The translations under genes were made by a program, and so were the position numbers. Of a DNA stretch of 64,000 nucleotides, positions 11,202 through 53,828 are shown in pieces (within the stretch, counting starts at the first letter, position 1; the number at the start of each line of letters is the position of its first letter). The notes under the pieces were generated by a model. The model saw nothing but the letters and a program-made list of their open reading frames with translations, was not told the origin of the DNA and made no database searches. Source of the DNA: Brevibacterium iodinum ATCC 49514 (GTDB lineage Bacteria > Actinomycetota > Actinomycetes > Actinomycetales > Brevibacteriaceae); assembly GCF_900169265.1 (NCBI RefSeq), contig NZ_FXYX01000013.1, positions 1-64,000 of the forward strand. The letters are read 5' to 3'.

Positions 11202-11267
11202 TCGTTCAACGACGAATCAGGTTTTCGATACTGCCTCGCATCGATAACCTGACTCGTCGTTGAACGA
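11202..11267. repeat. 66-bp inverted-repeat element, 19-28-19 type (copy 1)
   Basis: The left arm is TCGTTCAACGACGAATCAG (11202-11220). The right arm at 11249-11267 is its reverse complement with one mismatch. The 28-nt centre (11221-11248) has its own short inverted stretch (GTT...AAC, TCGAT...ATCGA). It lies between the convergent ends of usp copy 3 and the ferredoxin reductase gene. Four more copies with identical geometry are at 21058, 45045, 51671 and 53763. Confidence 0.8.
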
Positions 11268-11338
11268 CGCGGCCGCCGAACCAGAACGGACGCCCCTCCC
11301 AATCCTCGGCGCTGGCCTCGTCTGAACCAGCCGGGGCC

Positions 11339-12748
11339 TCAGCTCCCGGCGTTCGCGTCCGCGGTCAAGTGGGCGCGCGCCTCGGCGAGCATGGCCTCAC
11401 GGGTCGCGATCTTCACGCGCTCACGTCCCTCGGCCTCACCGAGGGCCTTCTCCGCGGCCTCGAGCCGGTGATAGCCCTCCCAATCGGTGAAGTCGACGCC
11501 CTTCGACTCGAGCAGCTCGACGATCGAAGACTCCTCCGGGTAGAGGGGTTCGGTGAGCGCACCGGCGGCCTGGTCGTCGAGAATATGCCCGATCGTCTCG
11601 AGCGCATCACCCTTCGTGTGACCGATGAGCCCGACGGGGCCGCGCTTGACCCATCCGGTCGTGTACACGCCGGGGATGACGTCCGCCTCGGCAGCCTGGC
11701 CCTGATCTTCGGCGTCGACGACGCGTCCTTCGTGATTCGTGATGACTTTCTTGGCCTCATCGAACGGCAGCTGCGGCAACTGCGTACCCGCATAGCCGAC
11801 GGCCCGGTACACGGCATCGATGTCCCAGTCGTGGAAGTCCCCGGTGCCGTTGACGCCACCGGTCCCGTCGAGTTCCTGACGTTCCGTGCGCAGACCGGTC
11901 ACCCGATCCTCACCGAGGATGGCCACCGGTGCGTGGAGGAAGTGCAGGTGCAGCCGCCGCTTCGCTCCGGTCTCCTCCCGCATCGCAAAGTCCGTGAGCG
12001 TCTTCGTCACCTGCTTGACCTGGTTGCTCGACTCGATGGCCTCGAGCGACCCCTGATCGAACTCATAGTCCTCGGGATAGACGATGATGTCGACGTCTTC
12101 GACCTGACCGAGTTCACGCAGCTCGAGCGGAGTGAACTTCGCCTGCGCAGGACCGCGCCTGCCGAACACGTGGACATCGGTGACCTTCGAGGACTTCAGC
12201 CCCTCATAGACGTGATCGGGGATCTCCGTCGTGTGCAGGTCGTCGGCCTGCTTCGCGAGCACCCGAGCCACGTCGAGGGCGACGTTGCCGTTGCCGAGCA
12301 CCGCGACCTTCTCCGCATCCAGCGGCCAGGTCTGGGCCACATCCGGGTGGGCGTCGTACCAGTTGACGAAGTCGGCAGCCCCATAGGAACCGGGCAGATC
12401 GATGCCGGGCAGCGACAGCGGTGCGTCGACGAAGCAGCCGGTGGAGAAGATCACGGCATCGTAGCGGTCGGTGAGCTCGCCGAGGTTGATGTCGACCCCG
12501 TATTCGACGTTGCCGAACAGGCGGATGTCACCGCGGTCGAGGACCTTGATGAGCGCATTGATGATGCCCTTGATCCGCGGATGATCGGGGGCGACCCCGT
12601 AGCGGACGAGCCCGAAGGGAGAGGGCAGGCGTTCGAACAGGTCGATGCTCAGTTCCAGGTCATGTTCGGCCTTGGTCAGCAGGTCGGCGGCGTAGATACC
12701 GGCGGGGCCGGCACCGATGATGGCCACTCTGAAGGGAATAGTAGGCAT
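11339..12748 (-). CDS. fprA: Ferredoxin/flavodoxin-NADP+ reductase, adrenodoxin-reductase type
   Basis: The 469-residue flavoprotein moves electrons between NADPH and ferredoxin. FAD-binding GAGPAG lies at residues 12-17, followed by the family blocks LPSPFGLVRYGVAPDHP and GNGNVALDVAR (NADP site), and the C-terminal GWVKRGPVGLIGHTKGDA. It lies 70 nt downstream of a 7Fe ferredoxin gene and ends the sulfite-reductase operon, as fpr2 accompanies cys genes in Corynebacterium glutamicum. Its likely job is to reduce the ferredoxin that feeds sulfite reductase. AAGGAAA precedes the ATG. Confidence 0.92.
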   Translation of the reverse strand: MPTIPFRVAIIGAGPAGIYAADLLTKAEHDLELSIDLFERLPSPFGLVRYGVAPDHPRIKGIINALIKVLDRGDIRLFGNVEYGVDINLGELTDRYDAVIFSTGCFVDAPLSLPGIDLPGSYGAADFVNWYDAHPDVAQTWPLDAEKVAVLGNGNVALDVARVLAKQADDLHTTEIPDHVYEGLKSSKVTDVHVFGRRGPAQAKFTPLELRELGQVEDVDIIVYPEDYEFDQGSLEAIESSNQVKQVTKTLTDFAMREETGAKRRLHLHFLHAPVAILGEDRVTGLRTERQELDGTGGVNGTGDFHDWDIDAVYRAVGYAGTQLPQLPFDEAKKVITNHEGRVVDAEDQGQAAEADVIPGVYTTGWVKRGPVGLIGHTKGDALETIGHILDDQAAGALTEPLYPEESSIVELLESKGVDFTDWEGYHRLEAAEKALGEAEGRERVKIATREAMLAEARAHLTADANAGS

Positions 12749-12818
12749 GGGTTTCCTTGATCAGTCGGAGGTGAGCGAAGCGTCGCTCGTCGTCATTGAG
12801 AAGTCAGTCGCGGGGTGT

Positions 12819-13145
12819 TCAGTCGTCGGCGTTCTGAGGCGGCAGAGCTGCGATGAAGGGGTGATCCTTGTCGACGACCCCGTGGGCGGCCGCACCACCC
12901 GGGGAGCCGATGTCGTCGAAGAATTCGACGTTCGCCTTGTAGTAGGCCTCCCACTCATCGGGCACATCGTCTTCGTAGAAGATCGCCTCGACCGGGCACA
13001 CGGGTTCGCACGCCCCGCAGTCGACGCATTCGTCGGGGTGGATATAGAGGGAACGGGTGCCTTCGTAGATGCAGTCGACCGGGCATTCCTCGATGCAGGC
13101 TCGGTCCTTCACGTCCACGCACGGCTGGGCGATGATATAGGTCAT
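12819..13145 (-). CDS. fdxA: 7Fe ferredoxin (3Fe-4S/4Fe-4S)
   Basis: The 108-residue ferredoxin carries two cluster sets: C9, C17, C21 and C25 in CVDVKDRACIEECPVDC, then C40, C43, C46 and C50 in CVDCGACEPVCP. Length and spacing fit actinobacterial FdxA. Its ATG overlaps the stop of the methyltransferase gene upstream by ATGA, so the two are translationally coupled. It probably carries electrons from the ferredoxin reductase to sulfite reductase. Confidence 0.93.
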   Translation of the reverse strand: MTYIIAQPCVDVKDRACIEECPVDCIYEGTRSLYIHPDECVDCGACEPVCPVEAIFYEDDVPDEWEAYYKANVEFFDDIGSPGGAAAHGVVDKDHPFIAALPPQNADD

Positions 13146-51850: not shown

Positions 51851-51944
51851 ACCCCACGGGAGCCCGCTGCAAGGGCTGAGATCGGACTGGATCGTCCGAG
51901 ACCGTAGAACCTGATCCGGTTGATACCGGCGTAGGAAGTGAGGA
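51851..51944 (+). promoter_or_regulatory. TPP riboswitch (THI element) controlling thiC
   Basis: The conserved parts are in order: CCACGGGAGCCC, the pyrimidine-sensing GGGCTGAGA (51873-51881), ACCGTAGAACCTGATCCGG (51901-51919), TTGATACCGGCGTAGG and the closing GAAGTGAGG. The last pairing segment overlaps the purine-rich ribosome site of thiC (TTG at 51951), so thiamine pyrophosphate probably blocks translation start. Confidence 0.95.
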
Positions 51945-51950
51945 CTGCAG

Positions 51951-53759
51951 TTGACTGCATTCACCCCTGAAACACCTGCCCCTGCCACGACTTCGTCTGA
52001 CGCAGATTCGCACGACCAGTTCACCCTCGAGCAGTATCCGACGCATTCGCCGGCGTGGGTCGATGACAAGGAACACGACATCCGCGTTCCAGTGACCCGC
52101 ATCGAGCTCGAGGACTCGAACGGCCGGTCCAACGATCCCGTCGACGTCTACCGCACCGTCGGGCCGGGCAGCATCCCGGAAGAGGGACTGCCCGCTCTGC
52201 GATTCCCGTGGATAGAGAACCGCCTCGACACTGAGACATACGACGCCCGCGGCCACCGCATCGCCGACGACGGTCGTGCCGCCGTCCGCCGAGGTGCCCC
52301 GTCGCAGCAATGGAAGGGACGCAAACCGGTTCCGCGGAGGGCCAAGTCCGGCCGCACGGTGACCCAGATGCACTACGCAAAGCAGGGCATCATCACCCCG
52401 GAGATGCGGTTCGCGGCACTTCGCGAGCAGTGCGATGTCGAACTCGTCCGTGCCGAGCTCGCCGCCGGTCGCGCGATCATCCCGAACAACATCAATCACC
52501 CCGAATCCGAGCCGATGATCATCGGCAAGGCGTTCCTTGTCAAGATCAACGCGAACATCGGAAATTCCGCGGTCACCAGCTCCATCGCCGAGGAGGTGCA
52601 GAAGCTGCGGTGGGCTGCGAAGTGGGGTGCCGACACCCTCATGGATCTGTCGACCGGCAATGACATCCACACCACCAGGGAGTGGATCATCCGCAATTCG
52701 CCGATCCCCATCGGCACCGTCCCGATCTATCAGGCGCTGGAGAAAGTCGACGGCGATGCGAATGCGCTGACCTGGGAAATCTATCGCGACACAGTCATCG
52801 AGCAGTGCGAGCAGGGTGTCGACTACATGACCGTGCACGCCGGTGTGCTGCTGCGCTACGTTCCGCTCACTGCCGACCGGGTCACCGGGATGGTCTCGCG
52901 CGGCGGGTCCATCATGGCCGGTTGGTGCCTTGCCCACCACGAGGAGAACTTCCTCTACACCCATTTCGATGAACTCTGTGAGATCTTCGCTCGCTATGAT
53001 GTCGCCTTCTCGCTCGGCGACGGACTGCGTCCGGGTTCTATCGCCGATGCCAACGATGCCGCCCAGTTCGCCGAACTCGACACTCTCGCCGAACTCACCG
53101 AACGCGCGTGGGCCCACGACGTCCAGGTGATGGTCGAAGGGCCCGGGCACATTCCGCTCCACCTCGTGCGGGAGAACGTCGAACGTCAGCAGGAGCTCTG
53201 CCACGGGGCGCCGTTCTACACCTTGGGTCCGCTGGTCACGGACATCGCGCCCGGATACGACCACATCACCTCGGCGATCGGGGCGACGGAGATCGCCCGC
53301 TACGGCACGGCGATGCTCTGCTACGTCACCCCAAAGGAGCATCTCGGGCTGCCCGACCGTGACGACGTCAAGACCGGGGTGATCACGTACAAGATCGCCG
53401 CACATGCCGCCGATATCGCGAAGGGCCACCCCGGTGCGACGGCCCGCGATGATGCGCTGTCGAAGGCTCGATTCGAATTCCGGTGGCGGGACCAGTTCGC
53501 CCTCGGCCTCGATCCGGAGACCGCCGAGGCGTTCCACGACGAGACGCTGCCGGCGGAACCCGCGAAGACCGCGCACTTCTGTTCGATGTGCGGTCCGAAG
53601 TTCTGCTCGATGCGCATCTCCCAGGACATCCGTGACACCTACGGCAGCGCCGAGGCGCAGGAGGCCCTGGCCGGAATGCAGCGGAAGAGCCGCGAGTTCC
53701 TCGCCTCGGGCGGAGAGGTCTACCTGCCCGATCCGACGGTCGGACTCAAGGCAGACTGA
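51951..53759 (+). CDS. thiC: Phosphomethylpyrimidine synthase
   Basis: The 602-residue radical-SAM enzyme turns aminoimidazole ribotide into HMP phosphate for thiamine. Family blocks include [18 protein letters not shown], the central barrel with [40 protein letters not shown] (partly) and the 4Fe-4S site CSMCGPKFC at 544-552. The N-terminal 60 residues are the ThiC-associated extension. The start is a TTG directly after the TPP riboswitch, which is the evident regulator. No other thi gene follows. It is monocistronic in the window. Confidence 0.97.
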
Positions 53760-53762
53760 CCG

Positions 53763-53828
53763 TCGTTCAAGGCGTGGCGCGTCGATCGAACTGTGCACGA
53801 GTCGGCTTACGCGCCACGCCTTGAACGA
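53763..53828. repeat. 66-bp inverted-repeat element, 19-28-19 type (copy 5, perfect arms)
   Basis: TCGTTCAAGGCGTGGCGCG (53763-53781) is mirrored without mismatch at 53810-53828 around a 28-nt centre. It begins 3 bp after the thiC stop, and its right end lies 17 bp before the -10 box of the amidohydrolase gene. Confidence 0.85.

Follow-up and report, generated by a model that had tools for sequence, protein, structure and literature searches.

The first 64,000 nucleotides of contig NZ_FXYX01000013.1 of Brevibacterium iodinum ATCC 49514 (the whole stretch of DNA analysed here, hereafter the window) contain five copies of a 66-bp inverted repeat, at positions 11202–11267, 21058–21123, 45045–45110, 51671–51736, and 53763–53828. 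The genus is also apparent from a protein encoded in the window, whose named relatives come from B. sediminis, B. permense, B. epidermidis, and B. linens. What is this element, and does it act as RNA or as DNA? We favour, with about even confidence and on the basis of sequence comparisons, a double-stranded DNA site on the chromosome that would be occupied by a putative oligomeric binding protein and would serve as a boundary or a roadblock. Double-stranded DNA and a bound protein are preferred because the spacing of the half-sites follows a ruler, because the half-site is conserved and directional, and because the element bears no signs of an RNA function.

The preliminary description of this locus had reported five copies with 19-nt arms on either side of a 28-nt centre, and this geometry was found in all of them at these positions. 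The arm ending that they were said to share was not found in every copy, since the copy at 51671 ends with TTGATCGA instead of TTGAACGA, and the centre cannot be regarded as a free spacer between two arms. The palindrome, which is imperfect, spans the entire 66 bp, and in 26 copies the conserved blocks TCGWTCAAG (positions 1–9), AGCGC (14–18), and TnTCG (22–26) are mirrored around a central CGTnnACG. In 92% of 146 flanks, a G or a C directly adjoins the element. When the B. iodinum genome was searched for exact 8-bp ends separated by an open gap (TCGTTCAA N40–60 TTGAACGA), eight sites were obtained; the gap was 50 in each of them, giving a total length of 66 bp, and the reversed control returned none. 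As this search yielded a single gap length, the 66-bp length is real, and the spacing is fixed rather than random, as had been proposed. With a fixed gap and up to three mismatches, 32 sites were detected in the same genome, compared to three in the control. Integron attC sites, whose end consensus is RYYYAAC/GTTRRRY, were considered and rejected: 45 of the 52 half-sites from the 26 copies have G at base 9 and six have C, and the ends are unlike those of attC.

The tens of copies that had been anticipated from a covariance model were found. Built from 24 copies, the model was used to score 150 of 2129 first-look candidates in the 3.54-Mb genome of B. iodinum and identified 27 distinct sites, each of 66 bp. 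The element also occurs in some related genomes. At an E-value of 0.01, 23 sites were found in genome G012 and 22 in G032, all but two of exactly 66 bp. At an E-value of 1e-4, matches were obtained in 20 of 37 Brevibacterium genomes (B. iodinum included) and in two of 22 others; the richest genome gave 63 rows, which correspond to about 32 sites because both strands are listed. An order-wide search of 297 genomes with stricter filters (E-value of 1e-6) returned nine Brevibacterium genomes and one other (G141, with two 58-nt matches). Also outside the genus, the matches in G058 were partial, and two of the four rows from G040 covered the full model yet were 72 nt long. G019, a close relative (test proteins 94–95% identical), had four listed rows, or about two sites, and several others had at least 20. 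Full elements were also seen as tandem pairs whose starts are exactly 91 bp apart, at C36:43079/43170 in B. iodinum, at 2850539/2850630 and 472641/472732 in G012, and at 2754010/2754101 in G032, these pairs representing two different loci. No description of the element was found among the papers listed from the open-licence literature of PubMed Central; of 921 papers matched by three of its 8- to 9-mers, the 10 listed appeared from their titles to be unrelated.

The two arms of the element do not vary independently. Among the 24 copies, 76.7% of cells were paired, against 67.3% after column shuffles and 29–39% with slid partners, and the covariation score was 0.254 against 0.124. The compensatory pairing noted in the preliminary description is thus real, although the inner arm pairs poorly in the copies at 21058 and 45045. 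At the sequence-variable columns of 32 ortholog pairs, 21% of paired pairs and 41% of unpaired ones differed. Because the arms covary and paired differences between orthologs are fewer, the sequences indicate that the dyad itself is maintained, either via selection or via template switching between the arms.

The outer block of the element was also found as separate half-sites. Around 86 full copies (73 in three genomes plus 13 belonging to other species), the 9-mer TCGNTCAAG, or a variant with a single mismatch, was observed pointing inwards 36 times upstream and, as its complement, 37 times downstream, whereas outward-pointing half-sites numbered 15 and 11 and shuffles gave 2–3 per class; in these counts, orthologs are counted repeatedly and some of the outward half-sites are part of adjacent full copies. 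In 153 fetched loci, 83 of 163 inward half-site pairs measured 66 bp, and the next classes were 66 bp plus 30, 39, 49–50, and 60 bp. The start-to-start distances between half-sites in these loci peaked at 19, 30, 39, 49–50, and 60 bp, and this periodicity was reached in 5 of 2000 trials using random distances with the same multiplicities.

The spacing of direct half-sites was further analyzed by a genus-wide exact search of 57 Brevibacterium genomes, with clustering at 80% identity. Between 17 and 47 bp, 88 rows were obtained, compared to 11 in the reversed control, and the 28 non-redundant pairs were located at 19–21, 29–32, and 39–40 bp, plus one at 45 bp. A helical reading predicted that longer pairs would be found at 49–50 and 59–60 bp, peaks that were already hinted at in the fetched loci. 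The search between 47 and 77 bp returned 29 rows, against none in the control, with 18 non-redundant pairs: thirteen at 49–50 bp, four at 59–61 bp, and one at 57 bp, the latter from G009, a genome in which the search at an E-value of 1e-4 gave no element match. When pooled, 43 of the 46 non-redundant spacings fell within 1 bp of a multiple of 10 (30% expected by chance), with a best period of 9.85 bp, and 21 of the 29 strings set aside from this set were in phase too.

The content of the half-units changes with their length. In 36 half-units, block 2 was mostly retained in the 29-bp and longer classes, and block 3 was mostly present in the 39–50-bp classes and mostly absent in the 29–32-bp class, as if one contact were made per helical turn. 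Half-units may also be repeated: four identical 30-bp half-unit direct repeats run into a full element at 24095 in genome G020 (C5:23975–24103), and locus L161 contains two near-identical 39-mer half-units. Since spacings in multiples of 10 bp correspond to the helical phasing of B-DNA, we read the element as a putative site at which an oligomeric DNA-binding protein nucleates. Because half-sites flank cores, the insertion of one element into another was also considered; it was set aside, as most of the cores that bear half-sites bear them on one side only, and among those with half-sites on both sides, L158/L175 and L229 alone show distances that add up to about 66. A comparable arrangement has been described for BldC of Streptomyces, a cooperative oligomer of variable length that assembles on direct repeats with a 9-bp site per subunit (PMC5859096). 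The likeness to this head-to-tail filament lies in directional repeats that each span about a helical turn; the BldC sites described there are located in promoters, whereas the present element has a dyad core, lies at the 3′ ends of genes, and differs in sequence.

Alternatively, the repeats may act as RNA, either terminating transcription in both directions as long hairpins or stabilising 3′ ends, and may have been copied about the genome long ago as a family that carries no U-tract. Their location at 3′ ends and in convergent gaps is consistent with this idea, as are the covarying arms and the very stable folds predicted for the RNA of three of the five window copies (z −6.5 to −8.5), but the other two copies, at 21058 and 45045, fold weakly (z −2.7 and −2.3, respectively). 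A stable hairpin just past the stop, as in intrinsic terminators, is present, though weak in two of the five window copies. On the transcribed strand of 32 tandem copies, 56 G–T mismatches were counted against 70 A–C mismatches, with 18 and 22, respectively, in the 11 tandem copies of B. iodinum itself. G–U pairs are therefore not more frequent than A–C, and there is no sign of selection for an RNA hairpin. TTTT was found within 12 nt in none of the 146 outward flanks of 73 copies, and a simple terminator scan of positions 44000–56000 flagged none of the three copies located there, in agreement with the earlier opinion that these are not simple terminators. Furthermore, a hairpin leaves unexplained both the conserved outer 9-mer and the half-sites phased at 10 bp. 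A search of the window against Rfam 15 gave a TPP riboswitch as the sole match above the gathering score, and none at the element. The symmetry between G–U and A–C, the missing T-tract, the lack of an Rfam match, and the helical phasing argue against an RNA element as the principal explanation, and we regard RNA-acting hairpins as unlikely. Of the selected RNA or DNA structure that had been put forward, a structured and covarying element was thus confirmed, but not the RNA alternative, given the lack of a G–U excess and the helically phased half-sites. Repetitive intrinsic terminators such as mycobacterial TRIT (RNIE) are mentioned in PMC3526491. TRIT presumably resembles our element in being a repeated, hairpin-capable family at gene ends; the element differs in that it has neither a U-tract nor a strand-specific RNA pairing signal, is symmetric, and has phased half-sites.

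Orthologous copies were compared in 36 pairs, mutually non-independent, from three genomes. Within the element, 2096 of 2375 aligned positions were identical (88%) and one of 2376 was gapped, whereas the non-coding flanks were 77% identical with 579 of 7314 positions gapped (7.9%), and the element was more conserved than its flank in 30 of the 36 pairs. Positions 2 and 5–8 changed in 0–3% of cases and position 4 in 25%. At some loci, the flank had become unrecognisable (identities of 0.42, 0.45, and 0.57) and the element was still identical at 57, 62, and 59 of its 66 positions; the best orthologs reached 66/66, and others retained just 44–49. Between non-orthologous copies of the same genome, the best pair in these three genomes shared 57 of 66 positions and the median was 39–42. 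Given this maximum, there is no sign of recent copying of the palindrome, designated type A in contrast to a second type (type B, see below).

These data bear on the possibility that the element is an old, inactive palindrome resembling a miniature inverted-repeat transposable element (MITE), with half-units as truncated or tandemly duplicated remnants and covariation as the product of template-switch correction. Such an origin would account for the inverted symmetry at the termini, the local tandem duplication of half-units (39-mers in L161, 30-mers in G020), the half remnants found after the M18 peptidase gene, and the finding that one gap, or the vicinity of one gene, may hold type A in one species and type B in another. 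However, target-site duplications were seen at none of 73 copies for k = 4–6 and at one for k = 7, though five were counted for k = 3 against 1.6 expected. Gaps lacking the element also occur, but the ones examined show differences that go beyond the element itself. Moreover, young type A copies are missing from the three genomes, the element evolves more slowly than its flanks and almost without indels, and a helical quantisation of half-unit spacing would be unexpected. An old MITE-like palindrome thus appears rather doubtful, and a young MITE is unlikely. ERIC sequences are about 127 bp long, and ERIC-like imperfect intergenic palindromes show compensated changes; compared to these and other MITE-like palindromes, the present element is 66 bp long, has no clear target duplication, and has phased half-sites.

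Dispersed extragenic palindromes that occur as singlets and inverted doublets are known as REP/BIME and REPIN in enterobacteria and Pseudomonas, and the extragenic inverted doublets and half-unit singlets described here could likewise be REP doublets spread by a RAYT transposase. Y1_Tnp (PF01797) was, however, found in none of 25 Brevibacterium genomes (B. iodinum included), in a search whose control was positive in 5 of 14 known genomes, and the absence of this transposase refutes REPIN in its usual form. The genome of B. iodinum has about 27 copies, where more than 100 would be expected, and none that are near-identical, so that we hold a REPIN origin to be highly improbable. Apart from the lack of RAYT/Y1, the number of copies in the tens, and the lack of young type A copies, the element also differs from REP and REPIN by its single 66-bp dyad core and its helically phased half-sites of the same direction. 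According to two reports, BIMEs are binding sites of several proteins, with proposed roles in chromosome organisation and termination (PMC2817692, PMC3116915).

The location of the element relative to genes was analyzed with rough gene calls from a home-made Markov caller, which misses some genes (the Usp open reading frame (ORF) before the copy at 11202 and genes between paired elements) and makes errors of context (L156 was called divergent but is probably tandem). According to these calls, the 73 copies of the three genomes comprise 33 in convergent, 32 in tandem, and 7 in divergent gaps, and one at an end; none lies within a called gene. For the 27 copies of B. iodinum, the corresponding numbers are 13, 13, and 1, compared to 4, 13, and 8 for the element-free gaps of the window (Fisher p 0.01 against divergent gaps and 0.02 for convergent gaps). 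As had been noticed from the sequence, copies lie near gene stops, the nearest stop being 3–108 bp away for all five copies of the window. Pfam matches of neighbouring genes include M18 peptidase, ThiC, TauE, MFS, CopC, DNA polymerase A, NucS, NusG, SpoU methylase, EPSP synthase, ZnuA, semialdehyde dehydrogenase, and PucR-type and GntR-type (UTRA) regulators. Operators typically show dyad symmetry and phased half-sites, and the two regulator genes among the neighbours (PucR-type helix-turn-helix and GntR/UTRA) could indicate that the sites are operators in the regulon of an ordinary transcription factor. Nevertheless, the copies follow genes, with only one of the 27 B. iodinum copies in a divergent gap, and the neighbours are mostly unrelated by Pfam, so that no regulon is visible; we consider this explanation improbable.

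A boundary role is therefore preferred to that of a promoter operator, because the sites follow genes that are often convergent and adjoin unrelated genes. If the element is a double-stranded DNA site, two inverted directional half-sites (TCGWTCAAG, AGCGC, and TnTCG, with about one block for each helical turn) would meet at the CGTnnACG dyad, almost always within 66 bp. A putative homo-oligomeric protein would bind the dyad core and would extend outwards on one face of the helix over further half-sites located two, three, four, five, or six turns away. The bound complex would most likely form a boundary, by blocking or terminating RNA polymerase arriving from either side or by providing a topological point or an anchor. 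More tentatively, the fixed 66-bp dyad may nucleate a polymerising protein at gene 3′ ends, with half-sites placed at whole turns setting the reach of the filament, and may thereby shield each of two convergent genes from the transcription or supercoiling of the other; the dedicated protein would be found mainly in part of one genus. The usual explanation for intergenic palindromes in bacteria is that they are terminators or the debris of transposons. In the present case, half-sites at about 20, 30, 39, 49, and 60 bp provide a ruler within the sequence, which makes a protein–DNA filament testable through half-turn insertions, and actinobacteria would, if this is true, gain a sequence-specific insulator at gene ends.

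Several observations weigh against such a protein-bound site. No binding protein was identified for the element, and 17 of the 37 genomes of the genus gave no match at an E-value of 1e-4. Individual sites are dispensable: in the gap between the M18 gene and thiC, nine readable loci (among 10 covered of the 27 fetched) comprised four with the element, three with a left-half remnant recognised by eye, and two with none, and 5 of 15 loci were without a model match in the MFS gap. The ortholog pairs were located via the model, which introduces a bias towards conserved copies, and the flank was conserved equally or better in 6 of 36 pairs, clearly so in L177/L186 (0.87 versus 48/66). A protein site does not demand covariation at sequence-variable columns, which may be explained by template switching between the arms. 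The half-site spacings may share ancestry despite clustering at 80% identity, and the background of the location test is small (25 gaps). Finally, no half-site arrays surround the five copies of the window, where one extra 9-mer (up to one mismatch), pointing outwards, was found within 120 bp of any copy.

The five window copies are placed as follows. Copy 1 (11202–11267) has GTTCAAC variant ends and a GC content of 48%, and lies between convergent Usp-family and oxidoreductase genes. Copies 2 (21058–21123) and 3 (45045–45110) are 66-bp palindromes located between convergent TauE and MFS genes and between convergent GSDH-domain and CopC genes, respectively. Copy 4 (51671–51736) is situated 8 bp past the stop of the M18 aminopeptidase gene and is soon followed by the TPP riboswitch (51847–51955, Rfam), directly 5′ of thiC (51951–53759); its counterpart is the left-half remnant, seen by eye, in three related genomes. 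Further long palindromes were observed 3′ of the M18 gene in several other Brevibacterium species. Copy 5 (53763–53828) lies 3 bp past the thiC stop and 29 bp ahead of an amidohydrolase gene, and five named Brevibacterium loci (L048–L052) have an element equally far upstream of the gene.

Type B is a near-perfect 66-bp palindrome of different sequence, TCRRTCAACGCGAAACKCGAAAAAGTCGTC and its mirror (by reading), which is present in some genomes; a pattern search of six genomes detected none in B. iodinum. A phosphomannomutase-family gene has a type A neighbour in B. iodinum and a type B neighbour in G012, 12 and 13 bp past the gene stop, respectively, and the upstream flanks of the two genomes are not alignable by eye. 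Similarly, the TauE/MFS gap that holds copy 2 (type A) in B. iodinum contains type B in three other genomes (L197, L200, and L201), the two types being differently spaced from the MFS stop.

Two related ORFs of about 335 amino acids, at L187 4218–5225 and L190 4155–5150, each lie between two 66-bp elements. They presumably resemble actinobacterial AbiEi/DUF559-type proteins. A role as a driver of the element was considered but set aside, as Pfam (L187 ORF) and NCBIfam (both ORFs) gave no match. A separate family of three long, near-perfect palindromes (TACCTGACGGCGGCCCAGCAACC...) was also observed in the window, at 39036–39104, 41189–41257, and 48457–48525, at or near gene ends.

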